This document shows, piece by piece, positions 13,624 through 32,427 of a stretch of 32,482 nucleotides of DNA. This stretch comes from Parcubacteria group bacterium M6-OD1-1 (GTDB lineage Bacteria > Patescibacteriota > Minisyncoccia > GWC2-36-17 > M10-OD1-4), in assembly GCA_003056085.1 (NCBI GenBank), contig LSNK01000002.1, positions 174,575 to 207,056 on the forward strand, given 5' to 3'. Position numbers and translations under genes: made by a program. The notes under the pieces are model-generated. The model saw only the letters and a list, made by a program, of their open reading frames with translations, was not told where the DNA came from and searched no databases. How positions within the stretch are numbered: the stretch's first letter is position 1; every line of letters starts with the position of its first letter.

Positions 13624-13716
13624 AAAGAAAGGAAGAAAAAAATAAACGAAGCACTTTTTTACGCAGTGTCAGAGCCTCCTCAAAAAGCGATGGTAGAATT
13701 TATCTCTCTTTTTTAA
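13624..13716 (+). pseudogene. Remnant of a second pth 3' end
   Basis: In the frame starting at 13624 the sequence reads ...INEALFYAVSEPPQKAM then VEF and stops at 13714-13716. The intact Pth ends INESLLCAVLETPQKAM then GKF. Nucleotide identity over the 57-base core (13645-13701) is about 75 per cent by eye. No upstream portion of a pth gene is recognisable, so this is a decayed tail left downstream of mfd. Its last bases overlap the end of the convergent 118-residue gene. Confidence 0.75.
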
Positions 13717-14056
13717 AATATCTGTTTCTTACTTTCTTAAAGACAAACACGATTAGGCAAGCCAATAGGTAAAAAGTAAAAATATTTAAAATAAAATATG
13801 AAAATCCTCCAATATTAAAACATACTGAATCATTCATGCCCGTCAAAGAACATAAGTCTCCAACCGCCCCTGAAACAGCTATGGCAGGAAAATCAAAAAT
13901 GTGTTTAAGTTTAAAAAATAAAGTTTCCGTTACACTTTCAAAATTTTCTGTTGGGGTAGTTAGGGCTATTGTTATTCTCATGCCTATTATGGATAAAACC
14001 ATAAGAACAAAAGTCAACATTAACTTGAAAAAATTAAATTTTATAAATTCTTTCAT
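13700..14056 (-). CDS. Hypothetical membrane protein, two transmembrane segments
   Basis: Not recognised. The 118-residue protein has a hydrophobic segment at about 9-32 (FFKLMLTFVLMVLSIIGMRI), a central extracytoplasmic or cytoplasmic loop of about 50 residues containing two cysteines (DLCSLTG, SVCFNIG), a second hydrophobic segment at about 84-107, and a strongly basic tail KKVRNRYFKKER. It follows the secreted 140-residue gene on the same strand, separated by a hairpin, within an island of envelope genes. Coding is plausible from the clean membrane topology, but no family name can be given. Confidence 0.65.
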   Translation of the reverse strand: MKEFIKFNFFKLMLTFVLMVLSIIGMRITIALTTPTENFESVTETLFFKLKHIFDFPAIAVSGAVGDLCSLTGMNDSVCFNIGGFSYFILNIFTFYLLACLIVFVFKKVRNRYFKKER

Positions 14057-14142: not shown

Positions 14143-14565
14143 TTACTGAATTGAAACTCGTACAGCAAGACCATTAGGAGCATCGTAATTCTTGAAGAAA
14201 AATTTATATTCTATAGAACTACTACCGCTATACAAAGATTGTTCCGTCTTCCACATATAAAAAACTCCTGCATATCTCCAAAGATGCCATGGATCCCCGG
14301 GGATAGATGCATCTCTCCAGTAAAAATTCATGTAAGCAGACTTATCCCAATAATACAATGATTCATGCCAAGTAGTGAACTCTCTAGTCCCCTGCTCGTT
14401 AGGAGAATAATAAACTGTTGCAGTATCCCACTCAGGAAGCATAAATCCTATGGTATCTCCCGTACCTATGTAGTAATCTACATTATCCGCATAAGCATTC
14501 CCCGAAAAAACAAATGCCGATAATATCAGCATTATCGCAAAAATTGCATTTTTTAGCAATTTCAT
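14143..14565 (-). CDS. Hypothetical secreted protein
   Basis: Unrecognised 140-residue protein. It has a clear signal peptide: basic MKLLK, hydrophobic core AIFAIMLILSAFVFS, and an Ala-x-Ala cleavage site at about NAYA-DN (residue 26). The mature part is rich in Tyr and Trp (WDTATVYYSP, YYWDKSAYMNFYW, WHLWRYAGVFYMW), suggestive of a beta-rich extracellular domain. The ribosome site AAAAGGAGAAG lies just before the ATG and fixes the start. The upstream region resembles that of the CHAP gene at 15578-16275 (same hairpin, same homopolymer layout), implying shared control. The function is unknown; cell-surface or host contact is a guess. Confidence 0.75.
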   Translation of the reverse strand: MKLLKNAIFAIMLILSAFVFSGNAYADNVDYYIGTGDTIGFMLPEWDTATVYYSPNEQGTREFTTWHESLYYWDKSAYMNFYWRDASIPGDPWHLWRYAGVFYMWKTEQSLYSGSSSIEYKFFFKNYDAPNGLAVRVSIQ

Positions 14566-14605: not shown

Positions 14606-14666
14606 GTTGCCAAGCCAATCTCAGCAACCAAAACCAATATACCATTTTTTTTTTGCGCCTTTGCAA
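14606..14666 (-). promoter_or_regulatory. Shared upstream cassette A: promoter with A10 spacer and 5' hairpin
   Basis: On the minus strand TTGCAA (14661-14666) and TATATT (14636-14641) are 19 nt apart; the spacer holds a 10-bp A/T homopolymer (14645-14654). Initiation would fall at about 14629, directly before a hairpin (14606-14628) with stem GTTGC / GCAAC and loop CAAGCCAATCTCA in plus-strand letters. The same arrangement precedes the CHAP gene. Confidence 0.5.
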
Positions 14667-14712: not shown

Positions 14713-14747
14713 TAACAACTTTGGGGACGGTCGTCCCAAAGTTGTTA
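14713..14747. repeat. GGGGACG palindrome, copy A
   Basis: Near-perfect hairpin with core GGGGACGGTCGTCCC and arms AACAACTTT / AAAGTTGTT, one bulged G. It is a relative of the identical pair at 29497 and 30231, with paired changes on both arms. On the plus strand it is followed by a run of T at 14753-14758. Confidence 0.7.
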
Positions 14748-14807: not shown

Positions 14808-14838
14808 AATTCTCCATAGGACAGTCCTATGGAGAATT
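14808..14838. repeat. Perfect palindrome
   Basis: Fourteen-base arms AATTCTCCATAGGA / TCCTATGGAGAATT around loop CAG. It lies in the 388-nt gap between the 140- and 179-residue genes. The remainder of that gap (14839-14953) is a slightly GC-richer stretch in which I see no gene. Confidence 0.7.
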
Positions 14839-14953: not shown

Positions 14954-15493
14954 TTAGTATCTTATAGTTTTCAAAATCAAGTTCCATGTTTCATCAAGTG
15001 AAGAATCTGTATCACTTCTAGAATAAAATAGACTAATCGGTGTGTTAGTGTATTGAGAAGATAAATATATTTTCGTGATATCCGCATGAACAGGCTGGTC
15101 GCCTGGCAATTGCTCATCTAATCTGTATGTTACAAACTCACCTTTCAACCCATTTATAACTACAGGCTGAATTAACGAAATAAACTCAGGCCTAACATTA
15201 TCCGCTAAATTACTCTTTTTATCACTGTTTTGTATTGGTTCATATATGGATATATAAGACCCATCTGGTCCAGTGATTTGCGCTCTTCTAATGCGATATT
15301 GTTTATAGAGACGATTACTCGTAATGGCTAAATCTTCAAAGTTAACTTCTTTAGAATATGAAAAAGAAATATTATTTCCTGAAAAAGTTATATAAGAAGA
15401 ATTGAAGTGACTGTATTTGGCTATACCCACTCCAAACAAAATAAAAAGAATAACGAAACCAATAATAATTTTTTTATTAAAGCTTATTTTCAT
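14954..15493 (-). CDS. Hypothetical membrane-anchored extracytoplasmic protein
   Basis: Unrecognised 179-residue protein. The N-terminus MKISFNKK is basic, followed by a single hydrophobic segment (IIIGFVILFILFGVGIA, residues 9-25) with no clear cleavage site, so it is probably anchored with the rest outside. The outer part has alternating polar and hydrophobic residues (YITFSGNNISFSYSKEVNFEDLAI) typical of a small beta-rich domain, loosely recalling PsbP/LpqN-like folds, but I would not assign one. It lies 84 nt downstream of the CHAP gene, beyond a terminator-like hairpin, and lacks the shared upstream cassette. Confidence 0.65.
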   Translation of the reverse strand: MKISFNKKIIIGFVILFILFGVGIAKYSHFNSSYITFSGNNISFSYSKEVNFEDLAITSNRLYKQYRIRRAQITGPDGSYISIYEPIQNSDKKSNLADNVRPEFISLIQPVVINGLKGEFVTYRLDEQLPGDQPVHADITKIYLSSQYTNTPISLFYSRSDTDSSLDETWNLILKTIRY

Positions 15494-15577: not shown

Positions 15578-16275
15578 CTACCACTGATTCCATGTTCCTA
15601 AATAAGCCGATGTACCATGATAACCTTGACTTTGAAGATCGGCATTACTCATGAAATGCTTGCCAATAACGTATGAACCAACCCAATTTGAATCAATGAC
15701 CCACCATCCAGACACTCCACCAATCGTTGCAGGTTTTTCAGCGATAGCGTAATGAGTGTTTGTTGCGGTCATCAATATCCAACCCTGTTGAAAATGAGTT
15801 GGATTACTTTCCAATCCGTTCACATTCCCATAAACGGAATTTGGATAATTATGCATTGCATAATGATCGCTATAATACCAAGCGGTAGAACGATACAAAA
15901 CAAGACGCACAAAATACGTACATTCACCGCCGCGAAAATAGCTGCCGTAAGGCCCCCTAACGGACCAACAATGCCGTAACCCTCCTCTATAGCATTGTCT
16001 CTTGCAGTGGCATCGTCATTCGCATAATCCCAGTCACCATACCATTTTTGATAAATGTCAGAGCCATCTGAATTACTTGAATAACCATCATTGCTTTTAC
16101 TCAAAGCATGTCTCGCTTCATACAAAACTCGAGAACTCCAATCACCATGAGTCCACGCATGAGCTTCATATGGTTGAGCATTGACAGAAGACATCCCCAA
16201 AAACAACAGGACAAAGCCAAATAAAAAAGCAAAGCCACGATGGACATTACTCACCACATTGCGTTTAGCGTTCAT
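15578..16275 (-). CDS. Secreted CHAP-domain amidase/endopeptidase, frameshifted
   Basis: Two overlapping frames make one gene. Frame 1 (16275 to about 15953) gives a signal peptide (FAFLFGFVLLFLGMSSVNAQ, cleavage near residue 33) and about 75 mature residues ending IEEGYGIVGPLGG. Frame 2 (about 15953 to 15578) continues PYGSYFRGGECTYFVRLVLY, the CHAP catalytic block with nucleophile Cys at about 119, then THYAIAEKP with the catalytic His and WWVIDSNWVG with the polar third residue. The frames join if the G5 run at 15953-15957 (C5 on plus) had six bases. CHAP enzymes cut peptidoglycan amide bonds. The start is fixed by the site AGAGGAGCG. Either a real mutation, a phase-variable tract or a sequencing error. 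Confidence 0.75.
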
Positions 16276-16315: not shown

Positions 16316-16376
16316 GTCGCAAAGCCAATCTCAACGACAGAGTAACTATATCATTTTTTATGGGGGGGGGGTGCAA
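16316..16376 (-). promoter_or_regulatory. Shared upstream cassette B: promoter with C10 tract and 5' hairpin
   Basis: On the minus strand TTGCAC (16371-16376) and TATAGT (16345-16350) are 20 nt apart, and a run of 10 C (plus-strand G, 16362-16371) lies in that interval. Initiation would fall near 16338, at the edge of a hairpin (16316-16338) with stem GTCG / CGAC and a loop containing AAGCCAATCTCA, identical to the core in cassette A. One stem pair differs from cassette A by a compensatory change. Confidence 0.5.
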
Positions 16377-16430
16377 ACTTATTTCTGGGGAAAACTTTTT
16401 TGAAAAACTAAATTTAAAACAAATCAAACA

Positions 16431-16466
16431 TTACTACTTATTGCGCGGTCGCGCAATAAGTAGTAA
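16431..16466. repeat. Perfect 17-bp palindrome
   Basis: Arms TTACTACTTATTGCGCG and its exact complement around loop GT. It lies upstream of cassette B, as copy A of the GGGGACG palindrome lies upstream of cassette A. Confidence 0.75.
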
Positions 16467-16552
16467 TAAAAAATATTTGATTTATTATTGAGATGAGGGC
16501 TAAAAAATAAATTATAGTATTCTCCTGCCTCTTAAATAAAATAGCAAATAAA

Positions 16553-16813
16553 TTAAGACCTGATAACCTTATGCAGTGTTGAAGAAATAAAAGTTTGATA
16601 TGGAATTCCCTCTTGGATTGCTTTTTCTTTTATCTTAATCAAGTCAACCTCTGACATTCTTATAGAAATAGTTTTGTTTTTTGCCAATGTTCCTTTGGCA
16701 ATCTTTGAATACTTTATTATTTCTCTTTTTTTATTTTTTACAGAAAAAACCCTTCCGGATTCCGCCAAATTTAAAATTTCTTTTTCTTCTTTATTTAGTT
16801 TAATTTTTTTCAT
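16553..16813 (-). CDS. Antitoxin, ribbon-helix-helix (BrnA/CopG-like)
   Basis: DNA-binding antitoxin that neutralises the upstream toxin and represses the operon. The C-terminal half TISIRMSEVDLIKIKEKAI then QEGIPYQTFISSTLHKVI (residues about 48-84) has the ribbon-helix-helix pattern common in BrnA-like antitoxins: a beta strand of alternating residues, then two helices. The N-terminal 40 residues are basic and acidic mixed and probably bind the toxin. It overlaps the toxin stop by four bases (ATGA), indicating coupled translation, with toxin first, the BrnTA order. A palindromic operator lies at the shared promoter. Length of 86 is normal. Confidence 0.85.
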   Translation of the reverse strand: MKKIKLNKEEKEILNLAESGRVFSVKNKKREIIKYSKIAKGTLAKNKTISIRMSEVDLIKIKEKAIQEGIPYQTFISSTLHKVIRS

Positions 16814-17079
16814 AATTTTTCCGTTAAATATTTTTTAGTTAATTTTCTTGATGGAATAATAGTTTTTAAAAAAACTTCTTCTTTGCTTTCTATAAAAGGC
16901 ACTAAGTAAATATAGCTCTCTATCTCTAAAATAAATATTTTTTGATTTTCGTAATTTTTATTTTCCAAAATATCTAATATCTCTCCAGCTTCTATTTTTA
17001 TCAAACAAATCTCAAAGGAAATTTTTCTTTCTTTTATAAGTTTCTTATTCTTTTTAGGATTCCAATTAAAATATTTCAT
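16810..17079 (-). CDS. Toxin, BrnT-like ribonuclease
   Basis: Probable type II toxin with a RelE-like RNase fold. Recognisable features are the start YFNWNPKKNKKLIKERKISFE (split here at residues 3-22 or so), matching BrnT F-x-W-x-P-x-K and H/R-x-V/I-S-F-E, then GEILDILENKNYENQKIFILEI and EEVFLKTIIPSRKLTKKYL, matching the strand before the C-terminal helix. It is divergent from textbook BrnT and lacks the usual His in the KHG segment (here KERK). Length is 89. The promoter and operator directly precede it. Family call is from pattern and gene order; mRNA cleavage is inferred. Confidence 0.75.
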   Translation of the reverse strand: MKYFNWNPKKNKKLIKERKISFEICLIKIEAGEILDILENKNYENQKIFILEIESYIYLVPFIESKEEVFLKTIIPSRKLTKKYLTEKL

Positions 17080-25916: not shown

Positions 25917-28900
25917 CTAAACAATTACATTAACCAATCTTCCTTCAACGAAGATTGTTTTTTTAATATCCTTTCCTTCTATCCATTTTTGAGCTTTTTT
26001 ATTTTCAAGAACCAATTTTTTTGCATCTTCTTCCGATATGTCAGAATTTACCAAAACAACATCTCTGACTTTTCCATTTACCTGAATAACAAAATTTATT
26101 TTTTCTTCTTTTACTAAACTCTCATCGTAACTTGGCCACAAAGAAAGATAAATACTTTCTTTATTGCCAATCATACTCCAAAGTTCTTCTGCTATATGCG
26201 GAGCAAACGGAGACAAAAGAATTAGAAACTTAGAATAGCAAACTAAAGAAATTTCTGCTTCTTTTTCCATATTATTTACCAATATCATAAGCTGAGATAT
26301 CGCCGTATTAAAATTAAAACTTTCAATATCTTCAGACACCTTTTTAATTGTTTTATGCAACAATCTTTCCAAGTCGTCATTCTTTATTTTTAATTCTTGA
26401 TCATTGATTCGTTCGTGCATTTTCCAAACCTTCTCCAAAAATCTTCTTGGACCGACAATGCTGTCCGTACTCCAAGAAACCGATTGCGAAAACGGTCCCA
26501 TAAACATCTCGTATACCCTTAGGGTGTCTGCCCCAAAAGTCTCCACTATATCATCCGGATTAACAACATTCCCCCACCTTTTTGACATCTTTCTTCCATC
26601 TTCTGCGTTTATAAGCCCTACATGCTGAAGCCTTTCAAACGGCTCTTTATAATTCACCGCCCCAATATCATACAAAAATTTATGCCAAAAACGAGCGTAT
26701 ATTAAATGCCGTGTAGCGTGTTCCGCTCCACCAACATACACATCAACAGGTGACCAGTATTTTTCTTTTTCTTTATCAACTAAAACTTCATCATTTTTAG
26801 AGTCAATATATTTTAAATAATACCAAGAAGAACCTGCCCATTGCGGCATTGTATTAGTTTCTCGTTTGCCTGCGCCTCCGCATTTTGGACATTTTGTATT
26901 CACCCACTCAGAAATCCCCGCAAGCGGAGACTCCCCTGTTCCCGTCGGCTCATAACTTTCAACTTCGGGCAAAATTACAGGAAGATTTTTCTCAAACACA
27001 GGTACCGCTCCACATTTTTCACAATGAATAATAGGTATAGGTTCACCCCAATATCTCTGTCGTGAAAAAACCCAATCACGCAGTTTGTATGTCGTTTTCA
27101 TCTGTCCCCCGACAAATTCAGTAATAGCCTTTTTCGCTTCTTCACTGTCCATTCCATCAAACTTGCCGGAGTTTACCAACCTGCCATCACCATCAAGATA
27201 AGTTGTCTTTTGTATTTGTTTCCAAATAAATTTCTGATGGTCTGGAGTTAGTAGGTCTGACACCTCATTTTCATCAACCCAAACGAGAGTATGGAGGGAT
27301 TTTTCTTTATCAGAAACTTCAACTTGAGATTTAATATTTTTAACCTCGGCAAGATATGTATGAGCAATAGCATATCTATTTTGATTTTTATGTGAAGCAC
27401 AGTAACGAGCTGAGGTTATCCAATTAAGTTTTTTTGTTATAGTTACTCCGGTTATTCCACTCTCTTCTTCAATTTCAGACAAAACTGCTTCTTCCGAAGT
27501 TTGTCCATTTTCTATACCACCCATAATTCCCGTTGTAATACCCTCTAAAGTTCCGTGCCAGTTCAAAAGAGCGTATTTGCCAGTTTCAGCATCTTTCAAA
27601 TACACAATAACTGTCTCTCTTTCAACCTCCTCTAAGCCATTTTGGGGTGGATTTTTAGAATCATCCGCGCAAGGAATAATAACTTGTTTAATCTCCAGTC
27701 CAAACTTTTTTGCAAATTCAAAATCTCGCTCATCATGCGCAGGCACCGCCATGATCGCCCCTGTCCCATAATGCGCAAGAACATAATCGGCAATAAAAAT
27801 CGGCAACTCTTCGTTATTCGCTGGATTTATCGCTTTTACACCTTTAAGCTCAACCCCCGTCTTTTCTTTCCCTTCTGCAGTACGCTCAATCTCTGTTTTT
27901 TTTGCTACTTCATCGCGATACTTTTCCACCTCGTCCCAATTTTCAATTTGCCCCTTCAACTCATCAACAAGTTCATGCTCCGGAGCAAGCACACAATACG
28001 TCGCGCCAAACAGAGTATCTGGCCGAGTGGTAAATACTGTAATTTTTGGAGTTTGTATAATTTCCTCCAATAATTCCGGAAACTTATCTGTTCCCATATG
28101 CCTTTGTACGAAGTGTCCATGACCTTTTAACTCTTTTACTTTTGCCTCCAATCTATCCTTAAATAATTTAGCAGTATCTTTTCCAATTTCTTCTTCATTA
28201 TCTGAAGTAAAAACAATAATATTTTCTACTTGTAATTTAATATTGCCGTTAACACTATAAGTATAAAATTCTCCGCAAATAGGATTTTCATCATTCTCGT
28301 CCTTCCATGGAGCAACCATTATTAATGACTTAACTTTTTTACCTGTTTCACCAAGCCATCGCACAAGAAATGATGCACCACAACTGTGTCCTATAAGAAT
28401 TGTATTTTCATTAATGTCCAATTTTTCAAAAACTTTTTTATGCTCTTCATATTTAGGCGCCCATGGATGTGGCATTAAAGGAAGCTCAACCTTTACTCCT
28501 GCTTCTTCGAGTATATTTTTAATCCAAGGTTGCCAGTGTTTGTCATAAGTTCTTGTTCTATGATCCATCTCTTTTTCAGCATTTGACGGACATCCATGAA
28601 TAATAATTACATTGTTTTTTTTATCGTTGGTCTTTGAACTTTTTACTTTAAACTCTATCTCCGCCCCCTCTGATTTCCCTATCCAATTTTTTTGAGACTC
28701 TTTTATGGATTCCGGCCAATTTAAATTTTCCAAATCCTCAAGCATTCTGTCGGCATAATCCGTAATTTTTAAAACCCATTGACGCATCATTTTTTTCTCA
28801 ACCACTGTTCCGCACCTCTCACACTTATCCCCCTCCAAGTCTTCGTTTGCAAGTCCTGTTTTGCATTTTGGACACCAATTTATCGGTTCATTTGACTCAT

Positions 28901-29348
28901 ACGCCAATCCTTTTTTAAACATCTGTAAAAATATCCACTGTGTCCATTTATAATATTCAGGATTAGTCGTATTTATCTCTCTCTCCCAATCATAATTAAA
29001 ACCAATTTTCCCCAACTGCTCTTTGAATCTTTTTATATTTTTCTTAACTGCCAAAGAAGGATGGACTTTGTTTTTAATTGCATAATTTTCCGCAGGAAGA
29101 CCAAAAGCATCCCACCCCATGGGGTGCAACACATTAAACCCGTTCATTTTTTTAAAACGAGAATAAACATCAGTAGCAATATATCCCTTTGGATGTCCAA
29201 CATGAAGCCCTTCACCCGACGGATATGGGAACATGTCTAAAACATAGCACTTGGGCTTGTCTTTTTGTTCGGTGGTTTTATAAACCCCACCTTCCTTCCA
29301 CTTTTTCTGCCACTTTTTTTCTATTTCTTTGTGATTATATTCTTTCAT
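25917..29348 (-). CDS. leuS: Leucyl-tRNA synthetase with inserted serine-hydrolase and Nudix-like domains
   Basis: Charges tRNA-Leu; class I. HIGH motif GLHVGH (47-52), zinc knuckles CPKC...CERC (159-179) and CEKC...CPKC (776-823), KMSKR (920-924), anticodon domain from about 965. The CP1 editing domain has the Thr-rich TVFTTRPDTLFG (437-448) and VPAHDERD (535-542) with the conserved Asp542. Length is 1143 against about 860. Insert 1 (about 236-433; DNA about 28050-28643) is an RBBP9-like alpha/beta hydrolase: GHSCG with Ser322, Asp383 and His412 as likely triad; it resembles the free protein at 31840-32427. Insert 2 (about 560-722; DNA about 27183-27671) is Nudix-like: Gly610, Glu625, Glu628, Glu629, Gly631 retained, but Gln616 and Ser624 replace the box's Glu and Arg. 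The frame is continuous. The roles of both inserts are unknown. Confidence 0.95.
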   Translation of the reverse strand: MKEYNHKEIEKKWQKKWKEGGVYKTTEQKDKPKCYVLDMFPYPSGEGLHVGHPKGYIATDVYSRFKKMNGFNVLHPMGWDAFGLPAENYAIKNKVHPSLAVKKNIKRFKEQLGKIGFNYDWEREINTTNPEYYKWTQWIFLQMFKKGLAYESNEPINWCPKCKTGLANEDLEGDKCERCGTVVEKKMMRQWVLKITDYADRMLEDLENLNWPESIKESQKNWIGKSEGAEIEFKVKSSKTNDKKNNVIIIHGCPSNAEKEMDHRTRTYDKHWQPWIKNILEEAGVKVELPLMPHPWAPKYEEHKKVFEKLDINENTILIGHSCGASFLVRWLGETGKKVKSLIMVAPWKDENDENPICGEFYTYSVNGNIKLQVENIIVFTSDNEEEIGKDTAKLFKDRLEAKVKELKGHGHFVQRHMGTDKFPELLEEIIQTPKITVFTTRPDTLFGATYCVLAPEHELVDELKGQIENWDEVEKYRDEVAKKTEIERTAEGKEKTGVELKGVKAINPANNEELPIFIADYVLAHYGTGAIMAVPAHDERDFEFAKKFGLEIKQVIIPCADDSKNPPQNGLEEVERETVIVYLKDAETGKYALLNWHGTLEGITTGIMGGIENGQTSEEAVLSEIEEESGITGVTITKKLNWITSARYCASHKNQNRYAIAHTYLAEVKNIKSQVEVSDKEKSLHTLVWVDENEVSDLLTPDHQKFIWKQIQKTTYLDGDGRLVNSGKFDGMDSEEAKKAITEFVGGQMKTTYKLRDWVFSRQRYWGEPIPIIHCEKCGAVPVFEKNLPVILPEVESYEPTGTGESPLAGISEWVNTKCPKCGGAGKRETNTMPQWAGSSWYYLKYIDSKNDEVLVDKEKEKYWSPVDVYVGGAEHATRHLIYARFWHKFLYDIGAVNYKEPFERLQHVGLINAEDGRKMSKRWGNVVNPDDIVETFGADTLRVYEMFMGPFSQSVSWSTDSIVGPRRFLEKVWKMHERINDQELKIKNDDLERLLHKTIKKVSEDIESFNFNTAISQLMILVNNMEKEAEISLVCYSKFLILLSPFAPHIAEELWSMIGNKESIYLSLWPSYDESLVKEEKINFVIQVNGKVRDVVLVNSDISEEDAKKLVLENKKAQKWIEGKDIKKTIFVEGRLVNVIV

Positions 29349-29604: not shown

Positions 29605-30222
29605 ATGAAAGGAGACATAACACTCAAAATACTCGAAACTCTTAAGAAAAACACCTTAGACAGCATAGACTTGCTTGAGGCATTTTTAACTTCCGGCTAT
29701 GGATCATCTTTTGCCGCTATAGAATACAATTGGAATCGCATATCTAAAAAAAGAAGTTATAAAAATAGCACTGAGAAAGCAAAAGATATCTTAACAAAAA
29801 AAGATTGGGATAAAATAAATAAAAGATTTAATGCCATGTTAAGTAAATTAAAAAAAGATGATTTGATAGAAAAATCCAAAAATAAATCAAAAATTATTAT
29901 TAAAATAACAGAAAAGGGAAAGAAAAAAATAAACGATATAAAAAAGAAAAATTCCATATTCCCTAACAATAATTATAAAACAGCTAAAAATAATAATTTT
30001 ATACTTTTTATGTTTGACATTCCGGAAAAAGAAAGAAACAAGAGAAAATGGATAAGATCTGTTTTGACTCGTATGGAATTTAAATTAATTCAAAAAAGTG
30101 TCTGGCTTGGAAAAACAAAAATACCGAAAGAATTTTTAAATGATTTAAGAAAATTGGGAATAATCCAATTTATAGAAATCTTAGAAATAACCAAAACAGG
30201 AAGCCTCAAACAACTAACTTAA
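29605..30222 (+). CDS. PaaX/Cas2-like winged-helix regulator
   Basis: Protein of 205 residues with two parts. Residues about 5-115 look like a winged-helix DNA-binding region (KILETLKKNTLDSIDLLEAF then LSKLKKDDLIEKSKNKSKII, ITEKGKKKI), very rich in Lys. Residues about 130-200 resemble the Cas2-like ferredoxin fold of PaaX-type repressors: FILFMFDIPEKERNKRKWIR, LTRMEFKLIQKSVWLG, then an Ile-rich strand. DIPEKER carries the Asp typical of the Cas2 position, but there are no cas genes or repeats, so a transcriptional repressor is more likely than an adaptation nuclease. Two identical 42-bp palindromes flank it; they may be its operators or unrelated hairpins. Sequence is AT-rich even for this window. 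Confidence 0.75.
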   Translation: MKGDITLKILETLKKNTLDSIDLLEAFLTSGYGSSFAAIEYNWNRISKKRSYKNSTEKAKDILTKKDWDKINKRFNAMLSKLKKDDLIEKSKNKSKIIIKITEKGKKKINDIKKKNSIFPNNNYKTAKNNNFILFMFDIPEKERNKRKWIRSVLTRMEFKLIQKSVWLGKTKIPKEFLNDLRKLGIIQFIEILEITKTGSLKQLT

Positions 30223-31839: not shown

Positions 31840-32427
31840 CTATTTTTTGATTTTGTTTAATAATTCAGGAAATTCCTCTGTTCCCATATCGTTCAAAGTG
31901 AAATGTCCGTGCTTCTTAAATTCAACCTTTTCTATGTCGTCAATGTTGTTTAATATTCTATTAACACTTATTTGAATATCATTGTCATCGTCTTTACTTA
32001 CAAAAAGAGTGATTCCCTTGGTTTTGCTAACTAAATCTTTTTGCATTTCAAAATCAAAGAAGTCATTATCAACACCTTTTCTTTTTTCTGGGTCTAACCA
32101 CGGTGCAACTAAAACAACTTTCTCGACTTTTACATCATTTTCTGAAAGCCATCTCACTAAAAATCCGCCACCACAACTATGCCCGACTAAAATGGTTTCT
32201 GAATCAATATCAAATCTTTCAAACTCCTTTTTCCAAACAACATAGTCTGGCATATAAGCATTTGGTATTTCTAGTGAAACTGTTGGAATATTTAATATCA
32301 TCAGCTGCTTTGATAGCCACGGTAACCAATGACTATTGCTCAAAGTCGGATACTGGTCAGAATAATATTCATCTTCACTGCCAGCACCGTGTATTAAAAT
32401 TGCATTTTTTTGTTTGGTTTCTTTCAT
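31840..32427 (-). CDS. RBBP9/YdeN-like alpha/beta hydrolase
   Basis: Serine hydrolase of 195 residues. ILIHGAGS near residue 11 is the oxyanion region; GHSCGGGFLVRW at 82-93 contains the nucleophile Ser84; LFVSKDDDND near 141-150 supplies the acid; KKHGHFTLNDMGTEEFPELL (171-190) has the catalytic His175. The protein aligns along its length with insert 1 of LeuRS (ETILVGHSCG against NTILIGHSCG; VAPWLDPE against VAPWKDEN; MGTEEFPELL against MGTDKFPELL). Substrate unknown. It begins a three-gene cluster with RidA-like and VOC genes. Confidence 0.88.
   Translation of the reverse strand: MKETKQKNAILIHGAGSEDEYYSDQYPTLSNSHWLPWLSKQLMILNIPTVSLEIPNAYMPDYVVWKKEFERFDIDSETILVGHSCGGGFLVRWLSENDVKVEKVVLVAPWLDPEKRKGVDNDFFDFEMQKDLVSKTKGITLFVSKDDDNDIQISVNRILNNIDDIEKVEFKKHGHFTLNDMGTEEFPELLNKIKK

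Follow-up and report, generated by a model that had tools for sequence, protein, structure and literature searches.

Homopolymer tracts in the spacers of a recurrent promoter type in Patescibacteria: probable slippage-tuned expression of secreted cell-wall hydrolases and small secreted proteins

On the minus strand of the 32,482-nt stretch of Parcubacteria group bacterium M6-OD1-1 DNA analyzed here (the window), two related promoters lie at a distance of 1.7 kb from each other. Both carry a run of ten identical bases between their -35 and -10 boxes, and raise the question of whether such runs act as slippage-prone switches for the genes that follow. The first-pass annotation had proposed such phase variation, placing a plus-strand G10 run at 16362-16371 with 20-nt spacing and a plus-strand T10 run at 14645-14654 with 19-nt spacing; both placements are exact to the base. 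On the coding strand the runs read as C10 and A10, respectively, and the first C of the former doubles as the final base of the -35 hexamer. We observed in addition a TG one base to the 5' side of the -10 hexamer in both promoters, a feature absent from that annotation, which gives the extended -10 elements TGATATAGT (TATAGT hexamer, 16350-16345) and TGGTATATT (TATATT hexamer, 14641-14636) for the promoters of a CHAP-like gene and of a gene designated SP140, respectively. The features of the 2 loci are as follows.

16386-16394, minus strand: DnaA-box-like element of the CHAP promoter, TTTTCCCCA, 9 nt upstream of the -35 box
16345-16376, minus strand: promoter of the CHAP-like gene; -35 TTGCAC at 16376-16371, C10 at 16371-16362, hexamer at 16350-16345, spacer of 20 nt
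16316-16338, minus strand: hairpin in the CHAP 5' leader, GTCGTTGAGATTGGCTTTGCGAC
15578-16275, minus strand: CHAP-like gene with signal peptide and one frame break (frame 0, then frame 2)
14954-15493, minus strand: ORF directly 3' of the CHAP-like gene; 179 aa, one N-terminal membrane segment
14675-14683, minus strand: DnaA-box-like element of the SP140 promoter, TTTTCCACA, 8 nt upstream of the -35 box
14636-14666, minus strand: SP140 promoter; -35 TTGCAA at 14666-14661, A10 at 14654-14645, hexamer at 14641-14636, spacer of 19 nt
14606-14628, minus strand: hairpin in the SP140 5' leader, GTTGCTGAGATTGGCTTGGCAAC, followed by a T run
14143-14565, minus strand: SP140 gene, encoding a 140-aa secreted beta-rich protein
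13700-14056, minus strand: membrane protein directly 3' of SP140; 118 aa, 2 predicted transmembrane segments

These 2 tracts are the only homopolymers of at least 10 bases in the window. A dinucleotide model predicts about 6.5 A/T runs of this length, of which 1 was observed, and 0.015 G/C runs, of which one is present; A/T runs are thus scarce and the G/C run is extraordinary. Pattern searches, from which all our genome-wide homopolymer counts derive, located G/C runs of at least 8 at four places in the 766-kb genome, only two of them reaching 10, and A/T runs of at least 10 at two places. Three of the 4 homopolymers of at least 10 fall in the spacers of one promoter type (P ~7e-5, with promoter spacers generously bounded at 900 promoters x 22 nt, or 2.6% of the genome), and the long spacer runs are not due to chance. 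The remaining one, a 12-base G/C run (G12) at G000:C6:15856-15867 (L013 3857-3868), was weighed as a possible fourth phase-variable site and rejected, as it lies inside a multiply broken ORF. That ORF is histidine-phosphatase-like and contains several stops and frame changes.

Spacers between promoter boxes are weakly constrained and any long run is expected to slip, so that the tracts might be variable without having any selected function. This explanation has to accommodate the rarity of long runs elsewhere in an AT-rich window, the confinement of nearly all runs of at least 10 in the genome to one regulon, and, as described below, the presence of the tract before the same gene classes in several families; we regard it as quite unlikely.

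The third spacer tract, T11 at C6:132394, led us to a third copy of the promoter in the same genome, in which CTATCCACA, TTGATT, the T run, TGTTAATAT and the leader GTCATCAAGATTGGCTTGGTGAT are followed in this order by a signal-peptide gene for a secreted Peptidase_M23 endopeptidase (Pfam 2.3e-14). A search of the genome with the leader motif, allowing 1 mismatch, had missed this copy. Common to the three promoters are a YTWTCCMCA box 8-9 nt before the -35 box, an extended -10 element, a leader hairpin and a signal-peptide gene, signal peptides being called throughout by eye and hydropathy. The upstream box is present at 3 of 3 promoters; the background rate is close to 1e-4 per position. Within this genome, matches with 0-1 mismatch were found only at the 2 window promoters, and a search allowing 3 mismatches returned mostly background (48 matches vs 56 for the reversed control). 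A TTWTCCMCA-like box occurs at a similar distance in G000, G002, G031 and G207; it is a candidate DnaA box.

Related promoters were observed in other genomes of the group. G002, from the same family, has two paralogous genes for secreted proteins that have promoter, leader and signal peptide in common but carry tracts of A14 (spacer 22) and A8 (spacer 16). At one of the G002 copies (L024 1290-1370), the end of an IS transposase abuts the -35 box on its upstream side and replaces the DnaA-box-like element. Both ends of G002 contig C5 (L078) carry very long poly-T/poly-A tracts, of up to ~80 bases, possibly assembly artefacts. In G031, from another family, T10 precedes a CHAP gene and T9 an M23 gene, with TTATCCCCA upstream of both promoters. 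A single contig of G137 carries five such promoters (T10, T10, T9, T9 and T10), serving genes for Amidase_6, CHAP, SP140 and two further secreted proteins, and a sixth (T10) precedes another Amidase_6, so that T9-T10 occurs six times in this genome, with small secreted proteins downstream in three cases, Amidase_6 in two and CHAP in one. Other instances are T9 before Amidase_6 in G055, T8 (spacer 17) before SP140 in G098, and TTGCAAG-C8-T8-ATGATATACT in G207, at two contig ends with a 77-bp repeat in common. Extended -10 boxes are present in our three promoters, in the G031 CHAP promoter and in those of G207. The SP140 homologues of G083 and G240 have no tract at the promoter, the homologous G083 promoter having a spacer of exactly 17 nt; the tract is therefore not universal.

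Across these copies the flanks are conserved while the tract ranges over A8-A14, T8-T11 and C8-C10, and the spacer from 16 to 22 nt. Tract length differs between duplicated promoters and between homologues, the comparison being across loci or genomes. In one such case, the promoter of the G137 CHAP gene and that of a neighboring small secreted gene are near-identical over ~190 bp through the -10 box, with four substitutions, and the sole length difference in this stretch is T10 vs T9 in the tract; further small indels occur only downstream, in the leader. The occurrence of an A, T or C run at the equivalent place argues that repetitiveness, rather than base composition, is maintained.

Observations of this kind bear on two further explanations. 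One is that the tracts have a static, structural role, as rigid or bent A/T spacers that aid extended -10 promoters, and that their length plays no part in switching. Most of the tracts are indeed A or T, our own promoters have extended -10 boxes, and T8 spacers occur at housekeeping promoters; yet the equivalent position is occupied by C10 in our genome and by C8T8 in G207 instead of A/T, the tracts of homologues span 8 to 14 bases, and the two near-identical G137 promoters have different tracts, so that this explanation appears unlikely. The other is that the runs are artefacts of assembly or sequencing, such as two-color poly-G or homopolymer miscalls. In favor of this are the draft state of the genome, the loss of frame in the CHAP gene at a short G run, and the position of the other long G/C run in an ORF with several lesions. 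Against this, the flanks are conserved on both sides of the tracts, the tracts recur with A, T or C in separate genome assemblies, and only two G/C runs of at least 10 exist in the genome; we consider an artefact very improbable.

We surveyed 315 genomes for the pattern TTGAC, T8 or more, TATNAT, and obtained 30 matches in 26 genomes vs 1 for the reversed-pattern control, which indicates that the matches are real promoters and says nothing about switching. Signal-peptide genes lay downstream of 3/3 T10 matches, 7/13 T9-T10 matches and 3/17 T8 matches. The secreted bias of T9-T10 relative to T8 gave a Fisher P of 0.045, and is weak, at 0.20, with the G137 cluster counted once. Spacers of T8-T9 were also found at housekeeping promoters (ribosomal protein S12, RNase P RNA, MreB and many T8 cases), and a tract alone is therefore no proof of switching. 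A C8 promoter pattern gave three matches vs four controls in the same 315 genomes, which is not significant by number; the sites of interest among them were only our own and that of G207.

In the aggregate, we believe that the promoters are probably phase-variable and tuned by slippage, in the manner of porA, fetA and vlp, and that they direct the synthesis of secreted peptidoglycan hydrolases and small secreted proteins. The proposal of the first-pass annotation is thus supported by the third copy, by recurrence in other families, by tracts that vary in length and base beside conserved flanks, by the duplicated G137 pair that differs in the tract, and by the strong bias towards secreted peptidoglycan hydrolases. 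That annotation had spoken of surface genes; the tracts do precede exported products, with predicted signal peptides and M23, CHAP or Amidase_6 domains, and these are better described as secreted cell-wall hydrolases and small secreted proteins. In the mechanism we envisage, the upstream box, the -35 box and the extended -10 box would be the fixed parts of each promoter, and the mononucleotide run in the spacer the variable one. Replication slippage would add bases to the run or remove them, and tract length may thereby vary within a population; the distance between the -35 and -10 boxes would change with it (16-22 nt among the copies found), and transcription of the M23, CHAP, Amidase_6 or small secreted protein gene would rise or fall from cell to cell. 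In sigma-70 promoters, the optimal spacer is 17 nt, and an extended -10 box can relieve the dependence on the -35 box and on spacing. The latter property is the main caution on the slippage-tuned reading, since the extended -10 boxes could soften any effect of spacing on expression. Also counting against this reading is the frame break of the CHAP gene in the assembly. It falls at a G5 run just upstream of the presumed catalytic Cys, and could equally reflect real decay of the gene, variation at the coding level or an assembly error. Pfam gave no match for the window CHAP-like protein alone, even when read through the break. The benefit of such a system may lie in heterogeneous expression of wall hydrolases toward host or neighbor cells.

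Most documented cases of phase variation come from cultured pathogens and commensals, and several known systems resemble the one proposed here. The porA and fetA promoters of Neisseria meningitidis carry a homopolymer between the -10 and -35 boxes, with a spacing of ~17 likewise taken as the optimum, and the poly-C of opc reaches the -35 box, as our C10 does (PMC7864442, PMC2791445). The present promoters differ from these in belonging to another phylum, in serving secreted wall hydrolases rather than outer-membrane proteins, in the interchangeability of A, T and C tracts, and in sharing a DnaA-box-like element and a leader hairpin. In Mycoplasma hyorhinis, a homopolymeric A tract is present in every vlp promoter (PMC10502178), and there too each member of a gene family in an AT-rich, reduced genome has its own slippage-prone promoter tract; here, however, the products are not Vlp lipoproteins, the tract base varies, and switching is inferred from sequence. 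The poly-G promoters of Treponema pallidum (tprE/G/J, tprL and TP0126) also have a G/C homopolymer, of 7-11 bases and with its length tied to activity, although the tprL poly-G overlaps the -10 box whereas our run lies in the spacer (PMC7864442). The nearest precedent in the CPR is a hypervariable repeat gene in a Gracilibacteria genome (PMC6851277), where local hypervariation is likewise associated with a repeat, in that case a coding 9-mer rather than a promoter homopolymer. Open-access full texts combining phase variation with Patescibacteria, CPR/Candidate Phyla Radiation or Saccharibacteria described no phase-variable promoters; a search limited to such texts is not proof of absence, and the homopolymer-spaced switch looks like one not previously described in this group. 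If the reading is right, tiny and probably symbiotic genomes would spend nearly all of their long homopolymers on randomizing the output of secreted cell-wall hydrolases, which could act on host walls.

The leaders may contribute a further level of control. Over five leaders (three own, two G002), 95.6% of the cells of a 9-bp hairpin are paired vs 22-54% for slid versions, with two pairs changed on both sides, so that its conservation, on five sequences, is suggestive; no Rfam covariance model matched the leader above gathering scores. The SP140 hairpin and its T run also score as an intrinsic terminator, a possible attenuator, and our own leaders contain a conserved GUUCUUUU able to pair with the ribosome-binding site. 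A second, post-initiation layer of control is therefore possible.

The 13.6-17.3 kb region that contains both promoters lies between mfd and dprA, which adjoin each other in G001 of the same genus; the region is therefore an accessory island. The same island contains a CopG-antitoxin/BrnT-toxin-like gene pair (16553-17079, minus strand), and its intergenic spaces contain long, perfect or near-perfect hairpins at 14808-14838, 14713-14747 and 16430-16467, probably terminators. Homologues of SP140 were found in G083, G098, G137, G076 and G240, also with small membrane ORFs to the 3' side, and were not found in viral contigs. The predicted SP140 fold was of low confidence (pLDDT 61) and matched generic beta-sandwich structures, for which reason we draw no function from it. 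A small membrane-anchored ORF lies 59-152 nt downstream in 9 of 14 cassettes, an arrangement that may be immunity-like and that we offer as a lead only. More speculatively, Patescibacteria might carry dispersed, sometimes tandem cassettes, each with a gene for a secreted wall hydrolase or for a small beta-rich protein, in many cases followed by one for a small membrane-anchored, immunity-like protein, that are switched individually by slippage; individual cells would then differ in the set of weapons or host-entry enzymes that they display, as a form of bet-hedging for epibiotic attack or competition. We put this forward tentatively.

Elsewhere in the window, a leucyl-tRNA synthetase of 1143 aa (25917-29348, minus strand) has two domains inserted in its editing-domain region, Ser_hydrolase (Pfam 4.6e-12) and NUDIX (2.1e-6), and a free-standing Ser_hydrolase ORF lies nearby (31840-32427, minus strand). 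The protein encoded at 29605-30222 (plus strand) contains a PaaX central Cas2-like domain (Pfam 5.1e-12).
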